Shown: piece by piece, positions 21,739 to 45,631 of the stretch
How positions within the stretch are numbered: the stretch's first letter is position 1
Layout of the letters: each line of letters opens with the position of its first letter
Source: Mesorhizobium sp. WSM4904
Lineage (GTDB): Bacteria; Pseudomonadota; Alphaproteobacteria; Rhizobiales; Rhizobiaceae
Direction of reading: 5' to 3'
Length of the DNA stretch: 64,000 bases
NCBI RefSeq assembly: GCF_029674545.1
Contig: NZ_CP121354.1
Location: 3,109,001 to 3,173,000, forward strand
Position numbers and translations under genes: made by a program
The notes under the pieces: model-generated
The model's input: only the letters and a program-made list of their open reading frames with translations
Database searches by the model: none
What the model was told of the DNA's origin: nothing

Positions 21739-22779
21739 TCACGTGAGGCCGAGCCGGACGAGATGGCGAACGACCGGCGAAAACATCTGCTGGCCGATAT
21801 AGGATCCCATGTTCGTGTTCTCGAAGAGCACTTCGGCGAGGGCGCTGTCCTCGACCACCGGAATAGCGGCCTGCCGCGCTTGAGCAGCCATCTCGTTGGC
21901 AGCGCGGCCCTGACCTTTGCCGACGACCGTCGGCACCGGCGTTTCGCCCCTGATGTAACGCAACGCTACGGCCCGGTCACCGGATATGAAGACGATGACC
22001 GCATTTTTTACGCCCAGCTTCGCCGGCCGTATCACCGCTTCGCGCCGCTGCCGCTGCTGTTCATGGCGAATCAAGGGATCGCCTTCGAGGTCCTTGTGCT
22101 CGCGCTTGTATTCGGTTGTCGTCATGCGCATGTCGCGAAGAAACAGCCAGCGTTGAATAGGGACATCGATCACGCCGATGACGACAAAAGCCAGGCCGGC
22201 GGCGATTCCCAGAGGCGTCAGGACTGCCTTGATCACCGGCTCCAGACATGACGGACCGCAACCCGGCGCATCGAAAAGCGGCTGCAGCCATGTGGTCAGG
22301 ACCACGACGAACAGGCATGCCAGCAGCACCAGCTTCATGAGGCCCTTGGCAAACTCGATGACGTTGCGGAGCGACAGGATCTTCTGCAGGCCCCTGGCCG
22401 GATTTATGTGGTCGAACTGCGGTTTGAGCGGCTCGAACGAGAAGACCGGCCCGAACGTCCCAAGCATGCCGAAGGCCGCAGTGAGAACGACAACGATGCC
22501 GACCAGCGGCAGCGTGGCAAGCATCAGCAGCGAGAATGAATGCCGGACAGCGCGCAGGCTGACATCGCCAAACGAACCGCCAGGCACGGTTACGGTCTGC
22601 ACGAGTTCCGAAAGGTGCCTGAAGAGCATCGGCCAAGAAAAATAAAGATACGCGAGCGCTGCGAAGAAAGTGAAGCCCGAGATAAGGTCGCGGCTCTGGG
22701 GAACCTGGCCTTTGCGGCGGGCGTCGCGCAGCTTCTTGTCGGATGCCGGTAGTTTCTTTTCCTCAGCTTCTTCGGCCAT
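21739..22779 (-). CDS. sctU: T3SS export-gate switch protein SctU (RhcU), NPTH motif absent
   Basis: FlhB/YscU-family protein of 346 residues. The N terminus is M-A-E-E-A-E-E-K-K-L-P-A-S-D-K-K-L-R-D-A-R-R-K-G-Q-V with the family pattern K-x-R-D-A-R-x-K-G-Q-V. Four membrane segments lie between about 30 and 205, and a cytoplasmic domain starts near 210. Normal members cleave themselves at N-P-T-H; here the aligned place (residues 264-267) reads F-I-S-G, while the next conserved part (A-L-R-Y-x-x-G-E-T-P-V-P, V-G-K-G) is kept. So the protein looks functional but non-cleaving. In canonical rhizobial loci rhcU follows rhcT; here it is 28 kb away, beside a recombinase relic. Confidence 0.92.
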   Translation of the reverse strand: MAEEAEEKKLPASDKKLRDARRKGQVPQSRDLISGFTFFAALAYLYFSWPMLFRHLSELVQTVTVPGGSFGDVSLRAVRHSFSLLMLATLPLVGIVVVLTAAFGMLGTFGPVFSFEPLKPQFDHINPARGLQKILSLRNVIEFAKGLMKLVLLACLFVVVLTTWLQPLFDAPGCGPSCLEPVIKAVLTPLGIAAGLAFVVIGVIDVPIQRWLFLRDMRMTTTEYKREHKDLEGDPLIRHEQQRQRREAVIRPAKLGVKNAVIVFISGDRAVALRYIRGETPVPTVVGKGQGRAANEMAAQARQAAIPVVEDSALAEVLFENTNMGSYIGQQMFSPVVRHLVRLGLT

Positions 22780-22864
22780 GTTGCAATCTTACCGCACTGT
22801 TGTGGTTCCAGTCTGCCTATGGGCTGTGTAAGGTGGCGCCGGGCTTGAATACGGAGAGGTGGAT

Positions 22865-23668
22865 ATGCGGTTGCATGTCGTATTCTTGCCTGTGGCCATC
22901 GCGCTGGCGCTGTCCGCTTGCCAGACGGCCAAAACCGGCTCGATCAACGCGAAAGCCCAAGGCCCGTCCTCGCAGTCGGATCGGCTGATCAAGCTTGCCG
23001 ACGATATCGACGCGCGCGGGGAAAGTGATACCGCGATCGCGCTCTACCAGCGTGCGGCAACGATGCCGGACGCCAAGGCGGGCGCGTTCGTCAAGGCGGG
23101 CGATGCCTATATGCGGGCCGGATACCCGGCTGACGCGGCCAAGGCCTATCAGGCCGCGCTCGCGAAAGCTCCCAATGACGGGAAGGCGATGCTCGGCCTT
23201 GGCTCGGCTATGATAGAGGCGGGCGACATCGACGCCGGCATGCGCGCGCTCACCCAGGCAGCGCCTCTGGTCAACACCAGTGGCGCCTATAACCGTTTGG
23301 GCGTGGCGCAGACATTCGCCGGCCAGATCACCGAAGCGCAGGCGACTTTCGCCCAGGCGTTGAAACTTGCGCCCGGCGACCTCGACGTCCAGACCAACAT
23401 GGCGTTGGCGGCGGCCCTTGAAGACAATTCCGCGGCGGCATTGCCTTTGGTGCAGAAGATTGCGGCTGCACCCAATGCGCAATTGCACCAGAAGCGCAAT
23501 GTCGTGATGGTCTATGGACTTCTTGGCCAGCCCGATCAGGTCAAGGCCTCGCCGCCTATCGGTCTGACGACCAAGGAGGTGGCCACCTTGCTGGCGCGCG
23601 CCAGAACCATCCGGTCGAAGGGCAGCACGCAGGCCAAGGCCAAAGCGCTCGGCTCCATCCTGGGCTAG
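22865..23668 (+). CDS. TadD-like TPR lipoprotein
   Basis: I choose ATG 22865 because GGAGAGG (22853-22859) is at proper distance from it but abuts the GTG at 22859. The product opens with a lipoprotein signal (L-P-V-A-I-A-L-A-L-S-A-C, lipobox L-S-A-C). The rest is tetratricopeptide repeats (A-I-A-L-Y-Q-R-A-A, A-A-K-A-Y-Q-A-A-L-A-K-A-P-N-D-G-K-A, A-Q-A-T-F-A-Q-A-L-K-L-A-P-G-D-L). This matches TadD, the TPR pilotin-like lipoprotein of Tad pilus systems that helps secretin assembly. It is divergent from sctU with a 79-85-bp shared promoter gap, and a Tad-type secretin lies close by. A T3SS pilotin role is inferred. Confidence 0.8.
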   Translation: MRLHVVFLPVAIALALSACQTAKTGSINAKAQGPSSQSDRLIKLADDIDARGESDTAIALYQRAATMPDAKAGAFVKAGDAYMRAGYPADAAKAYQAALAKAPNDGKAMLGLGSAMIEAGDIDAGMRALTQAAPLVNTSGAYNRLGVAQTFAGQITEAQATFAQALKLAPGDLDVQTNMALAAALEDNSAAALPLVQKIAAAPNAQLHQKRNVVMVYGLLGQPDQVKASPPIGLTTKEVATLLARARTIRSKGSTQAKAKALGSILG

Positions 23669-23853: not shown

Positions 23854-24303
23854 TCACTCGACTGGCTGCGTCGTTTGCGTCGTCGCCGGCGCTGTATTGG
23901 CTCCGCCAATCGGAGCCTCCTCGCCATCGAGGTAACGACGGGCCGCGCGCGCCGTCGGCGACGCCGGCGCCGCCCCCATGCGCTGGCCTTCGACAAGGTC
24001 GCGTTGGCTTTCTGCCATGCGCTGAAGATTGTAGGCATTGGAGCAGCCGGACGGCAGGTGGGAGCCGACACCGGAGACGATCGTCAAATCGGTCCTAGCG
24101 GCTGGATTGTCATCATCAGCCGGTTCGGCCAGGCATGCGTTGGGAGCAAGGACCGAGCCGCTGACGCCTTTCTCGGAGCCGCCGGTGTCGGTCGAGACAT
24201 AGCTGTAGCCGGGTGAATAATCCTGCCGATGTTGCGGACTGTTCATGCAGCCTGCCAAAAACAGCGCGGGAACAACGAAGCAGAAAGCGATGCGCAATGT
24301 CAT
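23854..24303 (-). CDS. CpaD-like pilus/secretin-associated lipoprotein (short form)
   Basis: The 149-residue product begins M-T-L-R-I-A-F-C-F-V-V-P-A-L-F-L-A-G-C, a lipoprotein signal. The diagnostic part is L-P-S-G-C-S-N-A-Y-N-L-Q-R-M-A-E-S-Q-R-D-L-V-E-G, matching the C-G/S-N-A-x-N-L-x-x-M-x-x-x-P-R-D-L motif of CpaD, the outer-membrane lipoprotein of alphaproteobacterial Tad pili. Typical CpaD is clearly longer, so the N-terminal region is reduced. It starts 12 nt after the Tad-type secretin gene on the same strand, as expected for a partner of that secretin. Confidence 0.82.
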   Translation of the reverse strand: MTLRIAFCFVVPALFLAGCMNSPQHRQDYSPGYSYVSTDTGGSEKGVSGSVLAPNACLAEPADDDNPAARTDLTIVSGVGSHLPSGCSNAYNLQRMAESQRDLVEGQRMGAAPASPTARAARRYLDGEEAPIGGANTAPATTQTTQPVE

Positions 24304-24315
24304 GGTCGTTTCCCG

Positions 24316-25671
24316 CTATTTGATGATCAGACCGGTCGCCGACGCGTCGTTGGCGTGCTTGCGACTGAGACGCTTGGCAGCCGGACGGTCGAGCGGCGTG
24401 GCGAGGCTGTCGCGCACCGGCGCCACCAGATAGGGAGTGATCAGGATGACCAATTCGGTCTCTTCATGCTGGAACCGCTGCGATTGAAAAAGGGGTCCAA
24501 GCACGGGCACGTCGCCGAGAACCGGAAATTTTTCCAGGTTGCGAGAGGTCCGCTGCTGGAAAAGGCCAGCGATCGCAAAGGTCTGACCGCTTGCCACCTC
24601 CACCGTAGTGTCCGCTCTTCGCACCACGAAGCTCGGCATGGCAAAGCCGTTGGCGCTTACGGAGCCGGAATCCGACAAAGAGCTGACCTCCGGCTGGACG
24701 TGCAGCGCGATGCGATTGCGGCCGATGAGCGTCGGGGTGAAACCGAGCGATACGCCGAAGGGTTTGTACTGGATGGTTGTGACGTCGGATCCCTGCGCGA
24801 TAGGCACGGGAATCTCCCCACCAGCCAGAAAGTTCGCCGTCTGTCCGGTAACGGCAGTCAGGTTCGGCTCGGCCAGTATCTTGACCACGCCGTTGCGTTG
24901 CAGGGCCTCGATGAGGACGTCGAAATTGAGGCCGTGCGCCTGGTTGAGGCTCAGACCAAAATTCCCATCGCCGCCCGAGGGCACGCCATTGTCCTGGAAC
25001 ATGTTGAATTCGAAGCCACCGCTCTTGTACCCGACGGACCAGTCGACACCATACGACTGCAACTCCGTGCGCGAGACTTCGGCGAAGCGGACCCGGATGT
25101 TGACCTGCTGCGAGCCCTGCACGGTCATGTTGTTCAGTGGCGGCTGTTCCGGCGGCGAGAACGTTCTTGCGACGTTGTCCAGATCTTTCGCCTCGTCGAC
25201 GCCTCGGGCTTCGCCCGTGATGGCGATGCGGGTTCCGAAAATGTGCAGATTTGTTGCCGAATTCGGTTGCATTGCATGCTTGGCCTCGGCGGCGGGCGTG
25301 ATATCGGGCGTGACGCGGAATTGAGCGGTTGCCTCGATCCGCTCGTCGGCCGTGATCGCAATAAGGTTGGTCAGGCCGGGTTTGAGGCCAAAGACATAGA
25401 CCAAACTTGGCGACACGATCTGGAGGTCCGCGATCGTGGTGTCCGCGACCAGGACGGATTCGACCGGCTCATTGAACCGCAGCAAGCGTCCTTGCCCGAC
25501 CGGCAGATCGAGGCTTGGCTTGCTCGGCAGGGGCGAAGCATTCTGCGCCGCCGCGCCGCCGATCGTGAACAACAAAGCCAGCAAAACACCAACCGTCGCG
25601 ATAGCGAGCCAGCGCATATCCGTCCGCCCGGCGGCGGATCGAACGCCTGCTGCGGTATCGTGGATTGTCAT
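24316..25671 (-). CDS. Tad-pilus-type secretin (CpaC/RcpA-like) in the T3SS operon
   Basis: AGGAGAGG sits before the ATG at 25671. A long signal peptide follows (hydrophobic W-L-A-I-A-T-V-G-V-L-L-A-L-L). Residues ~53-125 are the pilus-secretin N-domain (L-D-L-P-V-G-Q-G-R-L-L-R-F, V-F-G-L-K-P-G-L-T-N-L). Residues ~190-425 are the secretin channel domain with I-L-A-E-P-N-L-T-A-V-T-G-Q-T-A-N-F-L-A-G-G-E-I-P-V-P and a C-terminal E-L-V-I-L-I-T-P-Y-L-V-A-P-V. This is the CpaC/RcpA type, not the T3SS YscC/RhcC2 type. It is encoded 48 bp downstream of sctV. With RhcC1 and the Tad-like lipoproteins it probably forms the outer-membrane pore of the T3SS. Confidence 0.9.
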   Translation of the reverse strand: MTIHDTAAGVRSAAGRTDMRWLAIATVGVLLALLFTIGGAAAQNASPLPSKPSLDLPVGQGRLLRFNEPVESVLVADTTIADLQIVSPSLVYVFGLKPGLTNLIAITADERIEATAQFRVTPDITPAAEAKHAMQPNSATNLHIFGTRIAITGEARGVDEAKDLDNVARTFSPPEQPPLNNMTVQGSQQVNIRVRFAEVSRTELQSYGVDWSVGYKSGGFEFNMFQDNGVPSGGDGNFGLSLNQAHGLNFDVLIEALQRNGVVKILAEPNLTAVTGQTANFLAGGEIPVPIAQGSDVTTIQYKPFGVSLGFTPTLIGRNRIALHVQPEVSSLSDSGSVSANGFAMPSFVVRRADTTVEVASGQTFAIAGLFQQRTSRNLEKFPVLGDVPVLGPLFQSQRFQHEETELVILITPYLVAPVRDSLATPLDRPAAKRLSRKHANDASATGLIIK

Positions 25672-25719
25672 CCCGTTCCTCTCCTGATTCCCCAGATATC
25701 CCCGTTCGCCATGCCTTCG

Positions 25720-27882
25720 TCATGAGACTGTCTCCTGCGCGACTTTCGCCTGAGCCGACGGCAGCGCCTGGGCGCGCGCGCCGGCTCTTCCGCCACGGCC
25801 GGTGATCGTCGCCAGCGGCTGGACGTTGAATTCCTGCGCAAGTTCCTGGAAGGACAGGACCGGAAGCTCGATCGCATTGTGCGCGAGCAGGCTGCGCATG
25901 TGACGGCGCACGTCCATCGCGGCAAGCACGACCGGCGAGGCGTCGGTGGAGTTGTGCGACAGGGCCCGCTCGATTTCGCTCACCAAGGCCTGCGCATCGT
26001 CGTCCGAGAGGTTCAGGAATGTGCCTGACGATGTGCTTTGCACCGCGTTCCGCAGGATATCCTCGGCTGAACGCTGCAGCACATAGGCCGCGATGATGTT
26101 GTTGCGGTCGGCGGAACGGAAGCTGATCTGGCGCTTCAGGGATGTGCGGACATACTCCGTTAACAGGACGACGTCCTGTTCTCGTTGGCCCCATTCGATC
26201 AGCGCTTCAAGGATCAGGCGCAGATTGCGGATCGGCACGTTTTCGCCGACGAGCCGGCGAAGCACTTCCGCAATTTTCTGCAGCGGCACGATCTCCTGCG
26301 CCTGCCGGACAAGATCCGCATAGTCCGGCTCCATGTCCGACAGGAGCCTGCGCGTCTCCTGAATCCCGACGAAATGTCCTGCATAAAGCCGAAGTGCATT
26401 TCCGGTCCATCTGGCCGCCGTTTCGACGGGTGTGGAGAAAATGAAACCGGCCTCTTTCAGCGTCGAAATGTGGCTGTCATCGACCCACACGAATTTGCGC
26501 TGACCGGCGATCGATGCGGCTTTTTCGTAAGTCAGCTCAAGTAGATCCAGATGCGTTGCATCGGCTTCGACGAGAACACGGCCGGCGGGAATTTCGGCAT
26601 CCAGTATGGGCGCGCCTTCCAGGTCGATGCGGATGCTTCGCGGGGAGAGCATCTCGTCGGCCTGCATGCCGATGGCCGGAACGTCGACACCGAGATCGCC
26701 GAAGACTTCGCGGCGCACGCCGTCGGCGAACACGGCGAATTCGGACTCGGGAATCGTCTCCGCGAGTTCAGCCCCGAAGCGTACGACGATGCGGTAGGAA
26801 GCAGGCAGCGTTCCGCTGGAGATTGCCGATAGCGAAGCGGAACCACTGCGTTGTTCCTGCACCGCGATCTGGCTGACGTCCTGAGGCTCGGAGTCCTGAG
26901 CGCTGCGGCGATTGATTGCATAGGCGCCCGCGCCGAAGCAGGCGCCAAGGACCAGGAATACGATGGACGGAAAACCCGGCACCATGGCAAGGCCAACCAT
27001 GATCACTGCTGCGAGGGCAAGCGCACGCGAGTCCCGCAGAAGCTGGCTGGTGATCTGCCGGCCAAGGTCGCCTGTTCCGTCGGCACTGCCGACGCGCGTC
27101 ACCATCGTGCCGGCGGCGATCGCGACGAGCAGCGCCGGTATCTGCGCGACCAACCCGTCACCCACGGTGAGCAGCGAATAGGTCGCGGCCGCGTCTCCCA
27201 ACGACATGTCGTGCTGCAGCGTGCCGACGGCGAAACCGCCGACCAGATTGACCAGAATGATGACGATACCGGCGATGACGTCGCCCTTAACGAATTTCAT
27301 GGCGCCGTCCATCGCGCCGAACAGCTGACTCTCGCGCTCCAGCTGCTGGCGCAGGCGGCGTGCCTCAGCCTGATCGATATCGCCGTTGCGCAACTCGGCG
27401 TCAATGCTCATCTGCTTGCCCGGAAGCGCATCGAGCGTGAAGCGCGCGGCTACCTCGGCGACGCGTTCGGCGCCCCGCGCAACCACGATGAACTGCGCGA
27501 CGGTGATGATCAGGAAGATAACTAGGCCGACCGCGATGCTGCCGCCGACGACAAAGGTGCCGAAGGCGGTAATGATCTCCCCGGCGTCGGCCTGCAGCAG
27601 GATCAGTCGCGTGGTCGTGATCGTGATCGCCAGCCGGAACAAGGTGGCTATGAGGATGACAGACGGCAGCGATGAGAATTGCAGCGGATGAGAAACATAA
27701 AACGACGCCAGCAGGATAAGCACGCTGATGGCGATGTTCGCGGTGATGAGAAAGTCGACGAGAAACGTCGGCAATGGGATGAGCATCATCACTACGGCGA
27801 CGAGCATCAGGACGGCGATGACCAGGTCGCTGCGGCGTGACAGTCTGGCAAGGAATTGCAGAAGTCGCTCCGACGCGGTCAT
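25720..27882 (-). CDS. sctV: T3SS export-gate protein SctV (RhcV)
   Basis: A full-length FlhA/InvA-family protein (720 residues). Eight membrane segments lie in the first ~330 residues. The conserved loop V-V-A-R-G-A-E-R-V-A-E-V-A-A-R-F-T-L-D-A-L-P-G-K-Q-M is at about 135-160, and a large cytoplasmic domain forms the nonameric ring that receives chaperone-substrate complexes. The ATG shares its first base with the TGA of the upstream chaperone-like gene (TGATG), so translation is coupled. It is the core gene of the left T3SS operon. Confidence 0.96.
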   Translation of the reverse strand: MTASERLLQFLARLSRRSDLVIAVLMLVAVVMMLIPLPTFLVDFLITANIAISVLILLASFYVSHPLQFSSLPSVILIATLFRLAITITTTRLILLQADAGEIITAFGTFVVGGSIAVGLVIFLIITVAQFIVVARGAERVAEVAARFTLDALPGKQMSIDAELRNGDIDQAEARRLRQQLERESQLFGAMDGAMKFVKGDVIAGIVIILVNLVGGFAVGTLQHDMSLGDAAATYSLLTVGDGLVAQIPALLVAIAAGTMVTRVGSADGTGDLGRQITSQLLRDSRALALAAVIMVGLAMVPGFPSIVFLVLGACFGAGAYAINRRSAQDSEPQDVSQIAVQEQRSGSASLSAISSGTLPASYRIVVRFGAELAETIPESEFAVFADGVRREVFGDLGVDVPAIGMQADEMLSPRSIRIDLEGAPILDAEIPAGRVLVEADATHLDLLELTYEKAASIAGQRKFVWVDDSHISTLKEAGFIFSTPVETAARWTGNALRLYAGHFVGIQETRRLLSDMEPDYADLVRQAQEIVPLQKIAEVLRRLVGENVPIRNLRLILEALIEWGQREQDVVLLTEYVRTSLKRQISFRSADRNNIIAAYVLQRSAEDILRNAVQSTSSGTFLNLSDDDAQALVSEIERALSHNSTDASPVVLAAMDVRRHMRSLLAHNAIELPVLSFQELAQEFNVQPLATITGRGGRAGARAQALPSAQAKVAQETVS

Positions 27883-28211
27883 CAGGCAGCCCGATGCGAC
27901 AGGAAACTGAGCAACGCGCTGTGCGCCTCGGTTTTGCGCCCGGCCACGAGCAGGGCGCGACTCTTCAGCAATGCAAGCACCGGGTGGTCCATTCCTTCCA
28001 AGGTTTCCAGCCTGGCAATCGTCGCAAGCGCCTTTTCGGCCTCGCCATCCAATATGAGCAGATGCGCCAGCGTCCTGAGAACGCTGGCATTTCCCGGCGA
28101 AAGCTGCGCGGCGATAAGCAGGTACGCAGCCCCCCGCTTGGCCTGCCCGTGGCAGCCGTAGAGATAGCCCAGGACATGCAGCAGATGGACGGTGTCACGC
28201 GGGTCGGTCAG
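27882..28211 (-). CDS. SctG/SctY-like TPR chaperone with apparent CTG start
   Basis: This frame has no ATG, GTG or TTG start but codes a clean 109-residue helical protein. It reads L-T-D-P-R-D-T-V-H-L-L-H-V-L-G-Y-L-Y-G, A-A-Y-L-L-I-A-A-Q-L-S-P-G-N, V-L-R-T-L-A-H-L-L-I-L-D-G-E-A-E-K-A-L and ends S-F-L-S-H-R-A-A. That is about three tetratricopeptide repeats, as in the small YscG/PscG/HrpB1-like chaperones of T3SSs. The CTG (complement of 28209-28211) overlaps the previous stop as CTGA and is preceded by AGGAAGGAG at 7 nt. The stop overlaps the sctV start. It probably protects the needle or rod subunit; the partner is inferred. Confidence 0.75.
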   Translation of the reverse strand: MTDPRDTVHLLHVLGYLYGCHGQAKRGAAYLLIAAQLSPGNASVLRTLAHLLILDGEAEKALATIARLETLEGMDHPVLALLKSRALLVAGRKTEAHSALLSFLSHRAA

Positions 28212-28648
28212 ATTTCGACTCCTTCCTGCATGCGGCCAAGCAGGTCACGATGACGTTCGATTTCATCCTCGATCAGCGTTCTGGCGAGCGTCTTGAGTTG
28301 CTCGCCGCCCTCAAGGTCGGGAACCAGGTTCGCTATGAAATGCTGTAGAATAGGTACCGAGCGGCGCAGGATGGCCGGCTCCGGAATGATGGGCATGACG
28401 AAATTGGTGAGTATATCATCCAGCGATTCTCCGGCCGCATGTCGAGAAGCTTGGAATTCCGCCGTTTCAGACCCTCCCGCGGCAGCGGCCGATTTCGTCC
28501 CCTGAGCACCCTTGGCGGTTTTATCGACGCCATTCATGCGTCGCCGGCTGATCGTTTGCCCGCGCCCGCCTTCGGCCTGATGCACGTCGCGGCCGGCGGT
28601 TTCCACCCTCGCCGAATCGAGGCGCGGCCCTTCTAGTCGGCGGTTCAC
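28208..28648 (-). CDS. T3SS-operon protein of unknown function
   Basis: The start is GTG (complement of 28646-28648), overlapping the sctD stop as GTGA; an internal ATG at 28537 is the alternative. The first ~70 residues are basic, glycine- and alanine-rich and probably disordered. The last ~75 (from E-S-L-D-D-I-L-T-N-F-V-M-P) are helical and end R-D-L-L-G-R-M-Q-E-G-V-E-I. I do not recognise it. Position between sctD and the TPR chaperone and its two overlaps fit a needle, rod or regulator component that has diverged beyond recognition. Confidence 0.6.
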   Translation of the reverse strand: MNRRLEGPRLDSARVETAGRDVHQAEGGRGQTISRRRMNGVDKTAKGAQGTKSAAAAGGSETAEFQASRHAAGESLDDILTNFVMPIIPEPAILRRSVPILQHFIANLVPDLEGGEQLKTLARTLIEDEIERHRDLLGRMQEGVEI

Positions 28649-29646
28649 GGATATTTCAGCGCGACTGTGGCGCCGCCCTTGGTCAGCAGAAGTTCCGTCT
28701 CGCCGATATGCTTGATGGTCCAGCCGTCATCGGTGAATGCGCCTTCGTGATAGCGCGCGCCGTCGGCTGCGATGACATAAGGCCGGTCGCCATACCAGAT
28801 CGCCTGCAGCGTCAGGCGCGGCGCCTGCTGTGTGTTGCCGGTCATGACATTGGATACGAGGGGAACATGACCGCCGAAGGTCTGGTCGAACCAGGATTGC
28901 GTCTCTGTCCATACGCCTCTCTTGTCATCCGGGATCACGCCCGAAACCACAAGGCGCCCGGGCGATCGCTGGACGGTCAAGGTGTTTATGCCGGACTGAT
29001 CGAGACGCTGTTTGAGCTGGCTTTCCGCATCAGCGACAGTTTGAATTTGCGCCGGCGATGAATCGTCCAGCACTTCCTGGCCGCGCTCCCCGGCGAAAGC
29101 CATTCTGACCGGCTGATCGTCTTGAGAAGATGCCTGTGGGCCAATGTCGGACTTGGCGAGCGAGAATCCGTTGGCGCCGACGGAAACGGCGAAAACGGCA
29201 AAGAGAACGCCCCCCGCGACCAGCATGGAGCGGTTGCCGATCGACCACCGGCTCGACGGGTGTCCCGGACTGACCAGCCGGATACGGGCGTCGCCGATGC
29301 CGATGACTAACGGCAACCTGCAGCGGCTGCCATGTCCTTGACGTATGATTTCGCCTGTGGCGAGCGCAACATCGCCGCCGACGGCTTCGACTTCAAACTG
29401 GTTGCCGTTGCGCCGCAGCCTGGCGTGTATCGGAGCGATGCCCGCATCCCTGAGGACGATGTCTGACTCGGTGCTGGAGCCGATCGTATAAAGCGCTTCA
29501 ATCAGACGGAGCTCGGCGCCGGCATGAAAACCCTGCGTCACGCTGAGCGCGATGGGCTGTGCGGGTGACGACGACTGGGTGATAATCGATCGCAGCTGGC
29601 GCGCCGGCGCAGCGTCCAAATATCTGCCGATAGGGCTAGCGGTCAT
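28645..29646 (-). CDS. sctD: T3SS inner-membrane ring protein SctD (YscD/PscD-like)
   Basis: The 333-residue product has the family layout. An N-terminal cytoplasmic FHA-like fold is at ~33-126 (L-Y-T-I-G-S-S-T-E-S-D-I-V-L-R-D-A-G-I-A-P-I-H-A-R). One membrane helix follows at ~139-160 (M-L-V-A-G-G-V-L-F-A-V-F-A-V), then a periplasmic region with ring-building motifs from ~215 (V-A-D-A-E-S-Q-L-K-Q-R-L-D, G-R-L-V-V-S-G-V-I-P). It is shorter than YscD/PscD, which have more periplasmic repeats. It would pair with SctJ to form the membrane ring. Confidence 0.85.
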   Translation of the reverse strand: MTASPIGRYLDAAPARQLRSIITQSSSPAQPIALSVTQGFHAGAELRLIEALYTIGSSTESDIVLRDAGIAPIHARLRRNGNQFEVEAVGGDVALATGEIIRQGHGSRCRLPLVIGIGDARIRLVSPGHPSSRWSIGNRSMLVAGGVLFAVFAVSVGANGFSLAKSDIGPQASSQDDQPVRMAFAGERGQEVLDDSSPAQIQTVADAESQLKQRLDQSGINTLTVQRSPGRLVVSGVIPDDKRGVWTETQSWFDQTFGGHVPLVSNVMTGNTQQAPRLTLQAIWYGDRPYVIAADGARYHEGAFTDDGWTIKHIGETELLLTKGGATVALKYP

Positions 29647-31092: not shown

Positions 31093-34000
31093 ATGGTTCG
31101 CCCGATAACGCTCGCCAAGCCGCCCCTCCAGACACAGAAGGTCAATGCCAACGCGGATGCCGCCCAGGTAGCACGGCTGGAGGTGCAGGCGGCAGCGCTG
31201 CGGGACCAGATCAGGCTCGCCAACAGAATGGGCGAGCGCGATTGGGCGGCACAGGCTCGCCAGGAACTGGCGCAGGTAAACACGCAATTGAGTTCCCTTC
31301 AGCCGAGCCCGGCAACAGCTCCGGCGGCGCCGGGCGTCAATGTCGCGAACGCGAGCAATGGCACATCCGGCAATGGCACGACGGTAACCCCGGCACTCTA
31401 TGTGAACACCAATCCGGCAACTCCGGCTGTGACGCTGGTGGATCTCAATGGGAGTCCGGCCAAGGACAATCCCGCAGCAGCGAATACCGCCCGCGATATC
31501 GTCAACGACGTTACCGGAGGCAAAAGCATCGAGCAGATCGCGTCTGATCGCCACCTGACGCGCGAGCAGGTTATCGCCGCGCTCAGGTCCGGTGGGATGA
31601 TCGTGTCAGACAGCAGTGCGCCAAACGGCGACACGCAGACGACGAAAATCACGGATGCCAGCGGCCGGACCGTCACACAGTTTTATGACTACCAGCACGA
31701 CAGCTACTATGCGACAGTCCAGGAACAACCCGGCGGCGCGACGACGACCTCACCGATCCGGGATGGGCTCGGACGCAAGGAAACCACCAGCTACAATTCA
31801 GACACTGGCGCCATAACGACGCGCTACGAGGACGATCTCGGGACCGGAACCGTCACCGAACGGACGTCATTGCCCGACGGCGCATCGGTGGAAACGGTGA
31901 CGCCGGGCGCTGGTCCTTCCCTGCCAATGACCACCGTCACCGGCCCGGACGGCCGCAAAACCATACTGGCGCCCTCCCAGGATCCAGGTGGGTCCACCAC
32001 GCAGGACATCAACCACGATCTTGCCGACGGAAAAAGCATCGACCAAATCGCTAAGGAAAATGGCCTCACCAACGAGCAGGTGATCGGCGAACTGCAAGCC
32101 GCCGGCTACAAGGTTACGACCAACAACAGCAGCGACGCGCAGTCGGTCGAGCTCGCCGATCCGCGCACTGGCGGCAAGACCGTCTATTCTTACGATTATC
32201 AGCACGATGTACGCACCGTCACGACCACCGCGGACGGCAAGAAAACGTCGCTGTCCGTCGATGGCAACGGAACCGAAACCAAGACGGTCACCGACAAGGA
32301 CGGTCGGGTGACCACGACCACCACCAAGAAGATCAATGGCGGCAAGCCTGTCGTGTACGAGGTCCAGCCGGACGACAACCTGACCCAGATCGCGCGGCAA
32401 TATGGCGTCACGCTGGCTGACCTCAGGCGCACGAATCCGGAACTTTTCAGCTCGTCGCGCGACCCGAACACAATCCATACAGGCGAAAAAATTACCATCG
32501 ACAACGGCACCCGCACGACGGTCGAGGTCACATTCAACGGCTATACGCTGACCACCAAGCCCGATGGCAGCATGACGCTGCACAACAACACCACCGGCGC
32601 CGACCTGAAGATCGAGGCTGGAAGCACGCAAGAGGCCCTGGCCAGGACGCTGCTGGCGGTGAACCCCAACAGCAGCGACCCCAAGGAGGCGAAGGAAGGC
32701 GAGGTCGTGAAGACCTTCGTCGAAGGGATCTTGGCAGGAGAGGCCTTGCCCGGTCTCATCGACGCCGCGGAAAAGGCCGGACAGGACAAACAGGCCCTGA
32801 TCGACAAATACCACCTGGGTATGCCCGCCAAGCCTAAGCTTGACGGGCAGAACAGGGTTGTCGATCCTTTCGGCGATCCGCCGCAGGGCAACGCGCCCTC
32901 CGGGGGAAAGTGGATGCCGATGAAGATCGACGGCGTCTGGACCTGGGTCGACCCACAGGTCGCTCAGGCCATCATCGACGAGAACATCGCGCTGTCACGC
33001 GTCACCGAGATGCGGGCTCTGGCAGTCCAGGGACAGGAACAGCTCAATGTCGATATGCTCGATCCCGCCTACAAGGATGCCGTCGGTGGTGCGCAGACCA
33101 TCCTGAACAAGGCGTTGGCGCCTCACGGGCTGCAATGGAACGCCCAGAAGCCGAAAGGCACGCTTGCCGATGCACGCGAGCGGGTGACCAAGGCCAACAC
33201 CTTGCTGAAGAACGCGCAGGATGCCCGCGGCGAATATGAGAACGCCGGGCGCGTCCTCAAGGACGCCATCGCCGGGCAGGGTCCGCTGACGCCTCTTGGA
33301 GATCCGAATGCGCCGTCAGTCAGCGCGCGGGGCACTCCCGACCTTCATCCGCAACGCGATCAAAGCGTCGCCGACCACTCCGCTGTCGACAAGCTGTTTT
33401 CCGAGGTCGGCCTGCATCTGAGCAAGGGTGATAAGCTCACAATCGATTTCCTGGTCGGTCAGGCTGACCTCAACGGTGTTCCCAAGGACTCGAAGGAATA
33501 CAAGGAACTCACGACCCTGCAGACGACGGCAGGCAGTCAGCTCGAACTGGCGCAGGCCTATCAGGACTATTTCGACGCCCATGCCAATGCCACGCAGGTC
33601 AGCGCGCGGCAGACGGACCTCGAGCAGAAGCTGTCCAACGAGTATCTTGGCGAACAGAAGTTCAACTTTGACGAGAAGTACAATCGCATTAGCGGCGATT
33701 ACCTTGGGCACTACAAGAACTCGACGCTCGAGATCCGTGACGGCCAGCTCTGGGTCATCAACCATTTCGACGAGGGAACCACCGAACAGCAGCTGACCTA
33801 CAGCCTGAGCGACAAGAACGTCAGGGACGAATATCGCGATCGTCAACTCAACAAGGACTGGCAGGCGCTTCTGGCCGGCTATGGTTCCAACGCGAAAGTC
33901 TGCACGGCAAATGGTCTGCAATCGGTAAGGTCCAGCGAGGAGCAGGCGGCAAAGAGCTTGAACGACGTCCTGGATCGCCAGCTCGGCAACAGCCTCGCCG

Positions 34001-37000
34001 ATCTGAACGCCAAGCTGCCGATGCTGCAGACCAATTTCGACAATGCGCTGACACATCACAAGCCGGGATCGGTTGACGCTCCCGAAGGCACACTGCCCAA
34101 CGGCGCGCAGCCGGTCGAGATCAAAGTCGGCGGACAGACGATCAAGGTGGCGCCGGACGTCGCCCAGAACTATGAGCAGAATGGGATCGACGCCCTGACC
34201 CAGGGCGGGAAGGCAATCTGGATCGACCTTGATACGGAAGATGACGATAAAAGTGGTCGCTGGGTCGATCCCGGACTGGCGGTCGCCAAGCTCAGGCTGG
34301 AGGCGACAAAACTTCAGATAAGTCAGATCGGGGATCTGCGCAGACAGTTGCAGGGCTTCAACGACTATCACGAGCTTCGGCTCAGTGAGCCGTCTCTGCT
34401 GGCCGATGACAACACCAGTGTCGACAAGACCTATCTGGACGAGCACGAGCAGCTGACGCTCGACGCCATGTATCAGCCGAGATTCCAGCAACTGCTCAAG
34501 AAAGGCTACGACAACGAATTTCGCGAGCAGCGCGGCACGGATCTCGATGAAATGGTGGCCCGGAAGCTCGGCCTGGACAGTTCGACCGATGACGGCCGCG
34601 ACGCGATAGAGAATGTGACTGACGAGATCCGCGATATCGGCGGCGACAATCCGTATGTGCGCAGCGTGCCGATCTTCTATGTCGACGACCAGGTCGGAAC
34701 GCAGCAGGTCACGCTGTTTGCGGTGCGCGACGGGGATGGCAACACCCGCTATGTCGACGCGACCGGCAAGAAGTTCGACGACCTCGGCGATTTCCAGGAC
34801 AACAACAGCCAGTTCGGCGAGAACGGCAAGCTCGTCGTTCCCAAGGACCTCGAGATGAAGGCGGGACCCGACGGCAAGATCGCGCTCGACGTGGTCAAGG
34901 CCCGCAATGTCTCCGTCTGGGACAAGGTCGTCGATCCGCTGGTTGGCATCGGCACCGGCATTGCCACCATCCTGTCGTTCACGCCGGCCGCGCCGGTCGC
35001 GGCGCCGCTGGCCTATACCGGCGCGGCCTATCTCGGGACCAGAGCGGTCATAAACGAGGTCAACCACCTGGACCATGGTGGCGAGTGGTACGACACCGAG
35101 TCGTTGACCAACATCGCCAGCGCAGCAACCACCGTTCTGCCCATGGCTTCCAGCGGCCTACGCACGATCGGCATGGCGGCGAAGAGTGAGTCATTCCTGG
35201 CAGGCGTTGCTGCCAGTCCCCGCGCCTTCGCTGGCAGCATCGGCGCAACACGATCGAACTGGGCGTTGGCATCTGAAACCCGCACATACATGCAATCGAC
35301 TGCCAGACTGAACAAGGCGGCCTGGGGGATGGATGTCGGCTCGGTGGTTGTCGGCTCGCCGTTACTGGCAACATCGGCCTACGATCTCGCCGCCAACCGA
35401 GACCAGATGAACGGTCTCCAGCTTGCCAACGCGCTTACGGGCCTTGGCACCGGCATCACCGGCACGGGGCTCGGCATCCATGGTCTGCGCACGATGCGGC
35501 CAGGAACGGGCACACAGGACCCCAACGCTCCCGGCGCTGATGCAAATCCGCCCGGCAGCGACGGACCGTTCCAGCAACCGCCCGGCGGCAAACGACCGTC
35601 GCAACTGGCGCTGGAACCCGGCCCTTCGGGACGTCCGATGAATGTCTACGAAATCGGCGCCGACGGGGTTTACCGGCCAACGGGAGAGCAGGTCTTCCAC
35701 GACCCCAGCCTCCCGGTGATCCCGGGAGAAGTGATCAAAACCGATGACGTCGGCGGCAACGGCGCGACGGCGGCGCCGGTCCGCGATCCTGAAGGCTCGA
35801 CCGCCTCAGGCATACCGCACCCCGCTGACGGCGACCCCATCGTCGTGCCGGGCGAGCCGACAGTAAAGGAAGGGCCGGTACGTCTTGTCTGGGATCCGCA
35901 GACACGCAGCTTCACCGGCATGCCGGATCGCGACACGAGTGGCTACGTCTACACCAGCGGCAAGGACCCGAAGACGCCATCGGCTTATCTCGACGGCCTG
36001 AGCGCCGAGCAGCTGATGAGCCGTTATGAACAGGAGAAAGGCTATTATTCGAGCCGCGAGATGGCCGAGCGCTATGGCCCGGATGGCGTTCAAATCCCGC
36101 GCACGCCCCTCCGCGAGACCTTGCCCGACTTCCGCGTCGGCGTCACCGTCCGGGTCAGGCTGAACACGGGCCAGGCGTTCGGGATCGGCTCGCCGACAGT
36201 TGCGGCCGTTGGCTTCGGCGTCGGCACCAAAACCGACTTCGGCATGATCGGATGGTCGATCCTCGACAGCGTCGGCCAACGCAGCCTGACGCCGTTCAAG
36301 GATGCCCTCGGCACCCAGGGCGTGGTGTCTTTCCGGGCACGGGAATACAGGAACATAACCAGCCTTCAGGCTGGTGTCTGGCCGGTATCCAATCAGACGG
36401 CCTTCCCGGTTCGCAGCAGCGACTTGTCCGCAGCGGCGAGCAAGGCGATATTCCACGATGCCAGCGGCTACGAGGCCAAGCCGGTCGATGCCGCCATCGT
36501 GGGGATGACACCCGACGGCAAAGGCACCGTGATCGAGATGATCTACACGCCCTCGCTGAGTGGCAAGGAGGTCAGCCTCGCGCCGGGCCAGCACGATTTC
36601 TTTGGCGTGCCGGCGGAAAACAGCTCCGGCCATGTCGTGCTGCAAGGCACGCTTCCTTTCGATCGCGTCATGACCGAGACCAAGGCCGGAATACGCCTGC
36701 CGATCGTGGCCAATCATGTCGCGGCAGTCGATCAGATGCCGCGCATCGGTTTCGAGAAGCGTCCTGAACTGCCTGTGACCGACACGCTGCGGCCGGGCGA
36801 CGTCGTGTCGGCACAGGCGTTCGACCAGATCCAGTCGGCTCTTGGCGCGACAAAGCTGAAGGTCCAGTTCGCCGTCAACGACCCGGCCAAGGGATCCGAA
36901 CTAATCACGGCGATCGGGCAGGGCGATGGCATCCGGTCGATTCGCGACCTCGTCAAGTCCGGTCAGATCGATCCATCGAACACGGTTTCCCTTGTCGATG

Positions 37001-40000
37001 AGCCGACACAGAGCGGACTGCGGCTTTCAGCCATACCGGGCAAGTCGCCTACGGCGGATATTGTCTTGCTGACGGGCGAGAAGGCTCGCGTCGTCAACCC
37101 CGAGGCGATGCTCGTCGACGTCATCTTCAACGACAGCAACAGGCTGCCGGGCGCGCTGGGTTTCAATCCGGACCGGATGGTCACGTCCGCGACCTACAAG
37201 GTGAAATCGACAGTGCAGTCTTGGATTCCGGCGCGTTTTCGCCCCGAGGGATCGCCACAGTCCCGCTACATGCCGAGCGCCGGCAACATCTATCGGAAAC
37301 TGTACGGCTCGGACGGCACGCCCGCCACGCGTTACACGCTTTCAATGTCGACGCCGCCTCTGCCTGCAGGAGCGGTGGCTTACAGTGCCGAAGTGAGGTT
37401 CCAGTACAAGTCGAAGGCGGCCAAGACCGCTCCTTCGATCGCCAAGGGCGAAGACGCGACACTGACCTTCGATCGGGCCAATGGGCAGAGCGAAACGCTG
37501 ACGGTCCCGGCTTGGCTTGCTCACGCCGTGCAGCCGTCGGGCGATGGTGCCGCGAAAGGCGTTCCGAAGGGAGGCAGGGCCTCCCTGGAGAAGTTCCTCG
37601 GCGAGTTGGAGAAGACGGCCAGGCCCGACCAACGCGCCGCGATAGAGCAGTTCCGGACCGAATTCGGCCCGTCGATCGTCGACGGCGGGTTCATACGCCA
37701 GGACGTTGCCGACGGCGTGCTGACGTTCCTGTCCTCGCAGGTAGGAAGCCGCCGAAGCGGCCCGATCCAGATAAGGGACGAGAACGGGCAATCCGTGACG
37801 GCCACTCGTTACGGACCGCTGCCAAAAAGCGCAGAGAACGTCTATGTGCCGCCGGCGGACGGGCCGCAAGCGCGTGGCGACGAACCGGAGTTGATGCACA
37901 AGTCGCATATTTTGTTCCGGGATCCGGATACAGGCGAAGCATACGTCCTGCCATGGACGCGCGGTGCCTCGGAGGACCATGTGCCGGGCGGCCAAGCGAC
38001 GCCAACGGGAGAGGCGGCGCCGGCGCACGCACCCAGGAAAGCAATCGAGGCGGCTCCGCCGACAACCTATTCGCTGCAACAGATCCGCAACATGCGGCAG
38101 CCGGAAAAGTGGAAGGCAGGCGAGACCTATACGCGCGAACTCAACAGGTCGCTTGGAGAAGCCCATTTTCCGGTCGAGGCCAACCCGGACGGTCCCCATC
38201 CTGTTACCGGCCAGGGTGGGCGTTACGTGGATGCGCCAGTCTTCAAGAGCCAGGACGTGATCGAGGCGATCGAGGTCAAGACCTATCATCGCTGGACGAC
38301 CATCAATGGCGTCGCCCAGATGCGCGAAGTTCCGCTTACGCCGAAGCTGCAGGAGCAGATCAACAAGGATGTGGCGCTGCGGAACGAGAACTCAGGCTAT
38401 CAACCGCGCTGGGTTTTCCTCGATGCGCCGCCTTCGGCCGAGTTGCAAGGGGCGCTCGACGATGCCGGGATTGTCGGTAACATCTTCGGACACAACAAAC
38501 CTGCCGCAACAACACCGCCGCCCCAACCCGCGGCGGTCAGAAGCGGTTCCGGCCGTGCCATTCAGCTCGAAGACGAGAGTGGCGAGGTGATTACGGCGGC
38601 AGTGCTGGGTACCGGGCCGAGGAGCCCGGAGCAGGTCCATGTTCCGCCCTCAGACAGCACGCACGTATGGGGCGATGCCCCGGAGATGGCGGACAAGACG
38701 CACATACTGGTGTACGACCCCGATACGGGCGAGGCCGTGGTGCTGCCCTGGATACGTGGAGCTTCCGACGGTCACGTGCCGGGAAGCCTGGGCCGTCCGG
38801 AAGAGAACAATCAACAGGCCAATGCCGCCGCGCAGCCTTTGCGCGGCAAGGGACAGTCGGCGTCGAACAGTCGGCCGCTCACCCGGGACGGCGTCAGGGC
38901 TACCCCGCTTGATCAGGTGCCGGATCTCGTCATGGGTGATTTCCAGCCGACCCAGGTTCCATGGCTGAAGCGCGAGCAGGTCGCCGAGCTGACCGAACAG
39001 CAGTTCGGCGACATGGATAAGGCCGGCTTGCTGCCCTATCTGACCAAGAGCCAACTGCGCGGCATCCCCAAGGCAAAGACAGGCTTTGTCAATATAGCGA
39101 GCCTCGGCGAGAAGCAGATTCCATGGCTGACAGAGGGCCAAATCCGGAATGCAACGGACCAGCAGTTCCAGGATCTCGGTAAAGCCAGTCTGACGTCGCA
39201 CCTGACGAAACCACAGCTGCAGGCGATCAAGGGGGACAAGGTCCAGTTCGTCGACATGTCGACGTTGGGCGCGCGCCAGGTTCCGTGGTTCAGGCCCGGT
39301 CAGGTCGCCAAGTTCACGTCACCGCAGTTCAAGGACTTGGCGAAGGCCGGTTTGCTTAAGCATGTCACCGAGCGGCAGGTTCGGGCGATCCCCGAACCCA
39401 TGGTCGGCTCCGTGGACGTCGCAAAGCTCGATCCCAGGCAGGTGCCGTGGCTGACCGAAAAGCAGATCCCGGTGCTGACCCGCGATCAATGGGGCGCCTT
39501 CACCATTCACCACACCGAGGCTTTCATCCAGCCGCAGATCGAAGCGGCGACACCAAATCAGTTCGGGGAGACGAGCCCTGGCCAGTTCCGCAAGTTCACG
39601 CCCGAGCAGTTCGAGTGGATGAGCGGGGACCAGAAGAACGCTCTCTCCGTGCTGCAGCTGACGACCTTCCGGGCGACCCATAAAAAGGCGATGATGCCGG
39701 ACCAGGCCGCCAGCGTCGATCTGGCGCTGAGCCATGCCAGGATGCGCGAGAACGCTCAGGCACTCGCCACCTTTGGCGGCATGTCGACCACCTCTTACGT
39801 GCTGTGGAGCTCGCTGCCTCCGACCTGGACCGCTACTGCCGGAGCGGTGGCATTCGGCGTGCGGGGCTTCGTTTTCGGCGCGCAGGCTGTCTTCCCCAAC
39901 GCGACCGCAAACCATAAGCCGTTCGGGCGGTTCCTCAATGCGCTCGGCGGGGCCACATTCATTGCCGCGGCGCCAGGGGCGGCGACTGGGATGGTCCAGG

Positions 40001-41918: not shown

Positions 41919-42659
41919 TCAATGCCGGACAATAATCTGGGCGCCGATCTTCACTCGGTCATATAGGTCGATAACGTCTTCATTTGTCATGCGGATGCAA
42001 CCGGAGGAGTTGGCTTGGCCGACGGTCCATGGCTGATTGGTGCCATGAACGCGATAAAGCGTGTTGCCGATATAGAGCGCACGTGCGCCCAATGGGTTGT
42101 TCGGCCCTCCCGCGACACGCGCCGGCAATAAGCGGCCTTTCGATGCCTCCCTTAACCGCATTTCGGCCGGCGGCCGCCAATCCGGCCAGTCCTTCTTGCT
42201 CGAAATCGTGTCGCGACCGGACCATTCCAGCCCCTCCCTGCCGACACCGACCGCATATCGCAGCGCCTTGCCATTTCCCAATATGTAGTAGAGGCGCCGC
42301 TCCCTGGTGTTGATCACGATTGATCCCTTCGGTTGCGTCTCACCGAAATCGACGATCTCTCTTGGGATTGCCGACCATGCCGGCCTCATTTCGCCATCCG
42401 CGGTCTGGTCGGGAGCGGATGGCGAGACCAGCACATTTCGGGCTTGATCGTAGCTCCAGCTTCGCGGGTCGTAGCCGCTGTTCGATTGACCTTGCGCCGG
42501 CGCCATCGCGGCAGTCAACACGGCAGCAACCAGAACCGCTTCACCCAAGCCCTTGCCAAGGCGCGACCGGACCAGAGCCCAGCGCCAAGGAACGCCGGCC
42601 GGAGCATTCAAGCTCAAGAGCAGGTTATTGTGTGCCGCCACCGGGGCTGATCCCTTCAA
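41919..42659 (-). CDS. L,D-transpeptidase (YkuD), exported
   Basis: The C-terminal YkuD domain (~115-246) carries H-G-T-N-Q-P-W and S-S-G-C-I-R-M, the catalytic histidine and cysteine motif of L,D-transpeptidases that cross-link peptidoglycan through 3-3 bonds or attach proteins. An N-terminal hydrophobic stretch (A-V-L-V-A-A-V-L-T-A-A-M-A) acts as a signal peptide. The start is a TTG (complement of 42657-42659) with a weak site, so the exact start is uncertain. Located between the giant gene and rhcC1, it could modify the wall where the T3SS crosses it, but similar enzymes are common in rhizobia. Confidence 0.9.
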   Translation of the reverse strand: MKGSAPVAAHNNLLLSLNAPAGVPWRWALVRSRLGKGLGEAVLVAAVLTAAMAPAQGQSNSGYDPRSWSYDQARNVLVSPSAPDQTADGEMRPAWSAIPREIVDFGETQPKGSIVINTRERRLYYILGNGKALRYAVGVGREGLEWSGRDTISSKKDWPDWRPPAEMRLREASKGRLLPARVAGGPNNPLGARALYIGNTLYRVHGTNQPWTVGQANSSGCIRMTNEDVIDLYDRVKIGAQIIVRH

Positions 42660-42876: not shown

Positions 42877-43533
42877 ATGTTGACTGGACGCGGTACCTGC
42901 CATGTCGATCGGTTGTCGCAAGCCAGCGCTGCCATCATGGCCGGCGGGCTGGCGGCGATCATGACGTTCGGTCTTGCTGTTTCGCGGGCCGATGCCGCCG
43001 AGCCGCGCTGGCCGCAGGGTCCCTACAAATACATCACCATCGATCAGTCGGTGACGGATGCGCTTGTCGAACTCGGCCGCAACATGCGGGTGCCGATGCG
43101 TATCAGCAAGCTCGTCAAGGGACGTTTGAGCGCCGGCATGCCGGTTGGAACGGCGCGCGAATTTCTGGAAGAGATTTGCAATCGATACGGTCTGGTCTGG
43201 CATTTCGACGGCATCGTCATGAATGTCGCCACTGAAGCAGAGGTCCAGACCGAACTGATTCCGCTTGATGCCAACAGGGCCGCCGGCGCGGAAGACCGGC
43301 TTTCGCGACTGGGCGTCATCGATCCGAAGTTTCCAGTCAAGGTTTCCATGCAGGACGACGTCGTCTCGGTATCGGGGCCGCCATCCTATATCGAACTCGT
43401 CAGGAAGACACTCGGAGTTCCCGCCGCGCAAGGCGGCAAACAGGAGCCCGGCAAGGTCGCTTCGGTCCGCGTTTTTCGCGGAAGGCAGGCGGAGGCGCAG
43501 AATGTCCCCTCCGGAAAACCGACCAAGGAATAG
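42877..43533 (+). CDS. rhcC1: T3SS secretin N-terminal subunit RhcC1
   Basis: The 218-residue exported protein has a signal peptide (hydrophobic A-A-I-M-A-G-G-L-A-A-I-M-T-F-G-L, cleavage near A-D-A-A-E-P). N0/N1-type secretin domains follow (I-T-I-D-Q-S-V-T-D-A-L-V-E-L-G-R-N-M-R-V-P, then A-R-E-F-L-E-E-I-C-N-R-Y-G-L-V-W-H-F-D-G and V-S-V-S-G-P-P-S-Y-I-E-L-V). No channel domain is present. That is the rhizobial split-secretin arrangement, in which RhcC2 supplies the pore. No RhcC2 is found here; the Tad-type secretin at 24316 is the only pore protein. It is the first gene of the right T3SS operon. Confidence 0.88.
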   Translation: MLTGRGTCHVDRLSQASAAIMAGGLAAIMTFGLAVSRADAAEPRWPQGPYKYITIDQSVTDALVELGRNMRVPMRISKLVKGRLSAGMPVGTAREFLEEICNRYGLVWHFDGIVMNVATEAEVQTELIPLDANRAAGAEDRLSRLGVIDPKFPVKVSMQDDVVSVSGPPSYIELVRKTLGVPAAQGGKQEPGKVASVRVFRGRQAEAQNVPSGKPTKE

Positions 43534-45627: not shown

Positions 45628-45631
45628 CGTA

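Follow-up and report, generated by a model that had tools for sequence, protein, structure and literature searches.

How does a type III secretion system (T3SS) come to carry the outer-membrane pore of a Tad pilus together with the lipoproteins of that pore? The question is raised by a 64,000-nucleotide stretch (C1:3109001-3173000; hereafter the window) of the single-contig, 6.65-Mb genome of Mesorhizobium sp. WSM4904, where T3SS genes surround a Tad-type secretin gene and its two lipoprotein neighbors. An earlier note, made from the bare sequence, held that this T3SS had replaced its pore RhcC2 with a Tad module. Its relatives identify the secretin as the Rhc-family RhcC2 itself, and not as a replacement of RhcC2. 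We consider it quite probable that the module is the outer-membrane part of a T3SS of Rhc subgroup II (Rhc-II), comprising a Tad-derived RhcC2, a TadD-like pilotin that would dock the C-terminal GLIIK tail of RhcC2, a CpaD-like accessory lipoprotein and RhcC1 as a link. Within the Rhc family, the use of a Tad pore by T3SSs dates far back and is not peculiar to WSM4904. The Tad origin of RhcC2 has been in print since 2012 (PMC3459982), and the Tad-origin RhcC2, the TadD-like Y4yS and the CpaD-like lipoprotein were published between 2012 and 2015 (PMC3459982, PMC4311626, PMC4500985). The Tad ancestry proposed for the pore and its lipoproteins is borne out, but the idea behind it is not new for the family.

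Family matches confirmed that sctD, sctV, the Tad/CpaC-type secretin gene and the CpaD-like lipoprotein gene lie in one run, and that a gene for a TadD-like tetratricopeptide repeat (TPR) lipoprotein is adjacent, as the earlier note had read; sctU adjoins it as well. In RhcC2, the pilus N-domain (PF13629) and the secretin domain (PF00263) both score above their cut-offs, and the score against TIGR02516 is 79, compared to a cut-off of 238. The best match of RhcC2 among solved structures is the RcpA of a Tad system (181.9 bits); MxiD, the one classical T3SS secretin among the matches listed, ranks last with 23.2 bits. Phylogenetic analysis placed the window RhcC2 among Tad secretins, separated from the outgroup with a support of 98/98 (six outgroup rows, including one SctC) in the first tree and of 100 in a 75-row tree (four outgroup rows). 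Together with the profile alignments given below, the sequence comparisons support a Tad kinship of the secretin, the CpaD-like and the TPR lipoproteins alike. A Tad pilus locus was not seen next to the pore: no Tad ATPase, TadB/C, CpaE or prepilin was found in 30 Pfam-scanned window frames, some of them probably spurious and all beyond the first 21 kb, and all five genomic PF00437 ATPases are located outside the window. Three Tad loci were found in the genome. Every one of them has a secretin of its own, along with matches to CpaB, CpaE, CpaF, TadB and TadC; a secretin-less Tad locus that the window gene might complement, as the earlier note had considered, was rejected for these three loci.

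The 75-row secretin tree comprises 28 T3SS-borne, 43 Tad-borne and four other secretins, labeled according to neighboring marker genes. The window RhcC2, which is 98% identical to its nearest named relatives at this locus (Mesorhizobium), falls into a clade of 18 T3SS rows with an SH-aLRT support of 98, along with those of NGR234 T3SS-II, Ensifer, S. meliloti, Phyllobacterium, a Klebsiella aerogenes farm-soil plasmid, two genomes of other classes, and a Paracoccus locus and its near-copy. Without the Paracoccus pair, a 13-row Rhc-II clade gained 100/100 in each of the 44-, 55- and 67-row trees; in the first tree, with its six-row outgroup, Rhc-II did not resolve into a single clade. In the SctV tree, for which the program flagged long branches, Rhc-I and Rhc-II form one clade (99/98, including one R. 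etli row), within which the window SctV groups with Rhc-II (92/94). Rhc-II itself splits into two sub-branches, one holding the window group with the loci L095, L096, L099 and L100 (99/97), the other holding Sinorhizobium, Phyllobacterium and non-alphaproteobacterial loci (98/98). As the main splits inside Rhc-II are the same in the RhcC2 and SctV trees, the pore is as old as the Rhc-II group, with no recent swap; by this tree evidence, secretin and core of Rhc-II have travelled together, except in the Paracoccus pair. Consequently, the full replacement of RhcC2 proposed for the window system was rejected on the secretin and SctV trees, its gene being the RhcC2 of Rhc-II.

Comparison with NGR234 T3SS-II (pNGR234b, subgroup II) revealed the same pairing of RhcC1 with a Tad-type RhcC2, and the NGR234b, Ensifer, Phyllobacterium and S. 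meliloti loci share the order sctV, rhcC2, CpaD-like, TPR, sctU. Nevertheless, the window group forms a sub-branch separate from the Sinorhizobium form, with RhcC2 about 51% identical, and differs from the NGR234 T3SS-II type in an inverted TPR gene and a basic last residue of RhcC2. Apart from L022, the Mesorhizobium loci have the TPR gene inverted relative to its operon, as do L096-L098, L115 and L116; in L099 and the Sinorhizobium loci, as in L022, it is not inverted. By their published descriptions, the second T3SS of P. syringae (PMC3574062) and T3SS1 of M. alhagi (PMC5826200) are close kin. The latter was assigned to alpha-Rhc II by the RhcU tree of its authors and is salt-induced (PMC5826200), whereas a 2014 review gave Rhc-II in rhizobia as known from Sinorhizobia only (PMC3973906). 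Outside Alphaproteobacteria, Rhc-II-like T3SSs with a Tad-type RhcC2 were seen in L039 (Klebsiella aerogenes plasmid), L065 (Halomonas plasmid), L115 and L116; one of these systems is carried by a plasmid typed as conjugative. The literature search made on these systems yielded no paper about them.

The CpaD-like lipoprotein matches Pilus_CpaD with 18.0 bits (E 0.0025), below the Pfam cut-off of 31.1. At the level of family profiles, hhalign aligned the Rhc-II CpaD-like family with the C-terminal part of Tad CpaD over 72 columns (E 1e-15) and with y4xK of Rhc-I at an E of 1.5e-6; y4xK in turn aligned with Tad CpaD over 190 columns (E 1.2e-24). According to these alignments, the Rhc-II protein is a short CpaD composed of a lipid anchor and the CpaD C-terminal domain, with the central part gone. 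The family possesses a lipobox, two conserved cysteines after the lipobox Cys, a GCAN..NL..M motif and a DL..GR stretch. Neighbors were counted in those Rhc-II or allied loci in which RhcC2 is intact and the genes on either side of it can be seen. Of 37 listed, L009, L019, L024, L025, L026, L065 and L095 were left out (cut, broken, deleted or duplicate), so that 30 remained. The CpaD-like gene adjoins rhcC2 in 28 of the 30, the TPR lipoprotein gene lies beside rhcC2 in 28 as well, and both are found in 26.

A 2015 commentary stated that subgroup II clusters do not harbor y4yS (PMC4500985); in 28 of the 30 loci, these clusters do carry a TadD-like TPR lipoprotein beside rhcC2. The window protein is predicted to fold into a confident TPR superhelix with a predicted local distance difference test (pLDDT) score of 86.5. 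It shares with the TPR proteins of Tad loci and with Y4yS a repeat that ends in a conserved asparagine, N180 in the window protein, which is invariant in the 15-row Rhc-II TPR alignment. This residue appears to correspond to the conserved Asn of TadD grooves, which is D139 in PAO1 and an Asn in other TadDs (PMC10499894), its position being set by alignment with Tad-locus TPR proteins rather than with the PAO1 sequence. M. loti requires the TadD-like Y4yS to keep RhcC2 at normal levels (PMC4311626).

A candidate partner of such a groove is found at the very end of RhcC2. In PAO1, residues 412-416 of RcpA occupy the groove of TadD, the last four being required both for binding and for assembly of the secretin (PMC10499894). 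A tail of the form G-[FLYH]-x(2-3) closes 28/28 T3SS RhcC2 and 53/70 Tad secretins, compared to 2/21 other secretins (20 untyped TIGR02516 matches plus the SctC of L062; when true SctC were sought with TIGR02516, no match in 120 genomes exceeded the cut-off). Among ends produced by artificial shortening of the T3SS rows, the same pattern occurs in 48/1092 cases. Two near-identical pairs, L032/L106 and L040/L124, are among the 28 rows, which are thus not independent. In the window group (the window, 17 Mesorhizobium records and one Rhizobiales isolate), the tail reads GLIIK in 17 of the 19 sequences and GLIVK in two; the linker before it varies in part, while the last five residues are near invariant. 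By analogy with RcpA, we infer that the Tad docking peptide has been retained in RhcC2, with the TPR lipoprotein as the receptor of this peptide.

Taken together, these features suggest the following model. RhcC2, descended from a Tad (CpaC/RcpA) pore, would form the outer-membrane ring, and its GLIIK peptide would dock in a groove of the neighboring TPR lipoprotein. The latter may act as a pilotin, the part that TadD plays for RcpA and that has been proposed for Y4yS on RhcC2 in Rhc-I, and so carry the secretin to, or stabilize it at, the outer membrane. The CpaD-like lipoprotein, reduced to its lipid anchor and C-terminal domain, would be an inherited accessory of the same pore, and RhcC1, what remains of the older T3SS secretin, probably connects RhcC2 with SctD, a bridging that has been proposed in print (PMC3459982). 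The RhcC1 of the window scores 44-192 bits against RhcC1 of other Rhc loci and 57 bits against the classical SctC of L062, and is homologous to SctC (YscC/HrcC/MxiD). RhcC2 would have the same role in a T3SS as SctC but belongs to another secretin lineage, and no such tail was seen in the one SctC tested. With the CpaC/RcpA-CpaD-TadD complex of the Tad (Flp) pilus, the module shares the pilus N-domain and secretin domain, the C-terminal tail, the CpaD C-terminal domain and the TadD-type TPR lipoprotein. It differs in that CpaB, CpaE, CpaF, TadB/C and pilin are absent beside the pore, T3SS genes lie around it, and its CpaD is without the central part. For the pilotin of Rhc-II pores, an open question in print, the proposed answer is therefore the TPR lipoprotein beside rhcC2, acting via a five-residue, Tad-derived tail. 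In a literature search that covered few subscription papers, we found neither two Tad captures in Rhc T3SSs nor a TadD-type pilotin or docking tail for Rhc-II; what our sequence data add suggests a TadD-type pilotin candidate for Rhc-II, a conserved tail, a short form of CpaD and an unsettled case for two captures.

Several points weigh against this model. TPR folds are common; among the matches listed, PilW and PilF match the TPR lipoprotein no better than unrelated TPR proteins, and TadD is not among the solved-structure sequence or fold matches. The residue equal to TadD R79 is not placeable in the TPR lipoprotein, and the last residue of RhcC2 is Lys or Arg in the window sub-branch, compared to an acid in PAO1 RcpA and most other rows. 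L039 and L100 have no TPR gene nearby yet keep the tail, so either another protein serves there or the tail has another role; in addition, L100 shifts its place between the 44-, 55- and 67-row secretin trees. In L040 and its near-copy L124, the Paracoccus pair, no CpaD-like match was found and SctV lies outside the Rhc clade. Finally, four of five approximately unbiased (AU) tests, given below, leave the number of Tad captures open. Two ideas were tried and given up: the prediction that loci without the TPR gene lose the tail, which L039 and L100 contradict, and a charge swap between the basic last residue of RhcC2 and Glu120 of the TPR protein. The latter led to no conclusion, with the column of TadD R79 not fixed, no conserved Arg at that place in Tad TPR proteins, and basic ends also found outside the window sub-branch (Lys/Arg in L040, L124, L104 and the Tad secretin L035). 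L040, from a Paracoccus sanguinis plasmid, and L124 have a Tad-type secretin that branches next to Rhc-II RhcC2, on a long branch of the 75-row tree; since SctV lies elsewhere, pore and core may have different histories there, and a further pore exchange is possible by these trees.

The Rhc-I systems of NGR234a, M. loti MAFF303099 and Bradyrhizobium likewise have the split RhcC1/RhcC2, a Tad-type secretin followed by a CpaD-like lipoprotein (y4xK; the NGR234a gene after rhcC2 is annotated as CpaD family), and the TadD-like Y4yS beside rhcV. However, their secretin sits elsewhere in the Tad tree, their CpaD-like protein is near full length, and their TPR gene follows rhcV instead of lying by rhcC2/rhcU as in Rhc-II. 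WSM4904 itself has a second T3SS, of the Rhc-I type (C1:1487581-1518094; L032, L074, L129), with SctV at C1:1487581, its own RhcC2 at C1:1516934 and a y4xK-like CpaD lipoprotein; the Rhc-I RhcC2 clade, which includes this second RhcC2 of WSM4904, adjoins Tad secretins of Azospirillum and Burkholderia plasmids.

Three other histories can be set against the model above. That the window T3SS lost its original RhcC2 and acquired a complete Tad outer-membrane module of its own is very improbable. The window secretin does reach up to 326 bits against many Tad secretins, compared to about 249-275 bits against Rhc-I RhcC2, and stands outside the Rhc-I clade in the secretin trees, but it has a common origin with the RhcC2 proteins of all other Rhc-II systems examined, NGR234 T3SS-II among them, and largely follows SctV. 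The secretin search found just one secretin within the window, the other RhcC2 of the genome belonging to the separate Rhc-I T3SS, and in its narrow sense this history is already refuted by the grouping with Rhc-II RhcC2. We also regard it as unlikely that the T3SS is decaying or silent and the module without present function. Such decay occurs among relatives: rhcC2 is broken into two open reading frames (ORFs) in L024, the rhcC2, cpaD-like and TPR genes are gone together in L025 and L026, and an NGR234 T3SS-II mutant had no significant effect on nodulation of several hosts (PMC3973906). In the window, however, the recognized T3SS genes are open frames, and the RhcC2 tail hardly changes across 19 sequences while the preceding linker is variable in part; moreover, salt induces the alpha-Rhc II T3SS of M. 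alhagi, and an rhcQ mutant of this system shows phenotypes (PMC5826200). In the proposed model, the window system would be expressed and functional.

The remaining history, in which Rhc-I and Rhc-II each took secretin and CpaD (and TadD) from different Tad loci, or one lineage swapped an earlier Tad-type secretin for a second, is a substantial possibility that we rate somewhat below its opposite; the fuller version, in which Rhc T3SSs captured pore, CpaD and TadD twice and both kept the C-terminal pilotin-docking peptide, seems marginally less probable again. All six trees place the secretins of Rhc-I and Rhc-II at separate positions among Tad secretins, and the T3SS rows were united in 0/200 bootstrap trees (first, 44-, 55- and 67-row trees). 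Rhc-I groups with Azospirillum/Burkholderia-type Tad secretins at 97/94 (55-row) and 98/82 with L068 (67-row), and more weakly elsewhere (92/84 in the first tree, 81 in the 75-row and 94/93 in the 44-row tree). The CpaD profiles of each T3SS family are also nearer to Tad CpaD than to each other, though this is also compatible with one origin and a shortening. On the other side, RhcC1 is common to both groups and SctV unites them, so a single capture needs fewer events. A single T3SS clade was put to the AU test after inspection of the trees, with row sampling that differed between tests. The p values were 0.267, 0.19, 0.026, 0.128 and, for secretin plus CpaD columns, 0.281, so that one test in five rejects such a clade. 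Two captures are therefore favored by the trees, short of being demonstrated. If true, the Tad pore and pilotin set would be a portable cassette for the RhcC1 adaptor that can be lost as a block (L025, L026); proof of two captures would make the recruitment of secretins by T3SSs repeatable, with RhcC1 as the common adaptor.

The trees differ in sampling as follows. The 44-row set leaves out 31 of the 75 rows (outgroups, the Paracoccus pair, long branches, near-duplicates, and other-class or far-branch Tad rows), among them the three Tad secretins of WSM4904 itself; the 55-row set adds 11 rows; the 67-row set adds 21 of 22 new loci (L168 repeats L121) and drops nine rows. Among the Tad labels, L148 has no neighbor match, L142 rests on CpaB and a weak CpaD match, and L139 and L161 are without CpaB. 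L022 and L095 are the same record, and L095 alone was used in the 75-, 44-, 55- and 67-row trees and their AU tests.

The block loss was seen on the M. amorphae chromosome (L025 and L026), where rhcC2 beyond its first ~30 codons, the cpaD-like and the TPR genes are deleted together between sctV and sctU (L025 9953-10169, L026 9952-10121), with SctD, SctV and SctU remaining open. The same strain has a plasmid-borne Rhc-I RhcC2, 70.7% identical to that of NGR234a; the chromosomal system may be dead, or may borrow the plasmid pore. The split rhcC2 frames lie at 9944-11358 in L024 and at 6848-8142 in L065.

The T3SS genes of the window fall into two blocks (Table 1). The minus-strand block runs SctD, two small frames, SctV, RhcC2 and CpaD-like lipoprotein, followed by the TPR lipoprotein (+) and SctU (-); the plus-strand block, from 42877, runs RhcC1, an ORF without family, SctJ, K, L, N, O, Q, R, S and T. 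Two small ORFs in the SctD-SctV gap also occur in the Rhc-II loci L038 and L041. A candidate SctO gene lies here, its PF07321 score of 28.6 bits being just under the cut-off of 28.8; SctO is given as absent in Rhc-I in PMC3973906.

Table 1. T3SS and Tad-related features, in window coordinates.
Feature	Position	Strand	Basis
SctU (RhcU)	21739-22779	-	PF01312 261.9 bits
TPR lipoprotein, TadD/Y4yS type, candidate pilotin	22859-23668	+ (opposite to neighbors)	TPR repeats, lipobox LSAC
CpaD-like lipoprotein, short form, 149 aa	23854-24303	-	Pilus_CpaD 18.0 bits (below cut-off), family-profile alignment
RhcC2, Tad/CpaC-type secretin, 451 aa, C-terminus GLIIK	24316-25671	-	PF13629 61.8 bits, PF00263 148.7 bits
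SctV (RhcV)	25720-27882	-	TIGR01399 827.9 bits (cut-off 692.25); SctV tree
Second open frame between SctD and SctV	27885-28244		Read from frames
Small ORF between SctD and SctV	28208-28648	-	No Pfam or NCBIfam match
SctD (Y4yQ type, FHA domain)	28645-29646	-	PF23893 Y4YQ_C 81.3 bits, PF21934, PF16697; YscD domains
RhcC1, remnant of older T3SS secretin	42877-43533	+	T3S_SPI-1_N0 22.9 bits (below cut-off 27)
SctJ	44177-45013	+	PF01514 100.1 bits
SctK/NolU-like	44887-45627	+	PF06578 24.7 bits (cut-off 22)
SctL	45488-46267	+	PF06635; TIGR02499 above cut-off
SctN ATPase	46264-47622	+	PF00006, PF18269
SctO-like	47609-48097	+	PF07321 28.6 bits (cut-off 28.8)
SctQ	48106-49227	+	PF01052
SctR	49151-49873	+	PF00813
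SctS, assigned by position and size	49892-50161	+	ORF list
SctT	50171-50986	+	PF01311

Between the two blocks, an open frame of 3290 aa (31093-40965, +) contains LysM and SH3_3 domains and a weak DUF4781 match below the cut-off; DUF4781-annotated proteins are likewise found close to T3SS genes in L038 and L067, which makes a role as T3SS substrate or helper possible. An L,D-transpeptidase (YkuD; 41919-42659, -) has relatives that adjoin sctU in the Rhc-II loci L036, L038, L041 and L070, and is, although far from sctU here, a possible cell-wall partner of the window T3SS.

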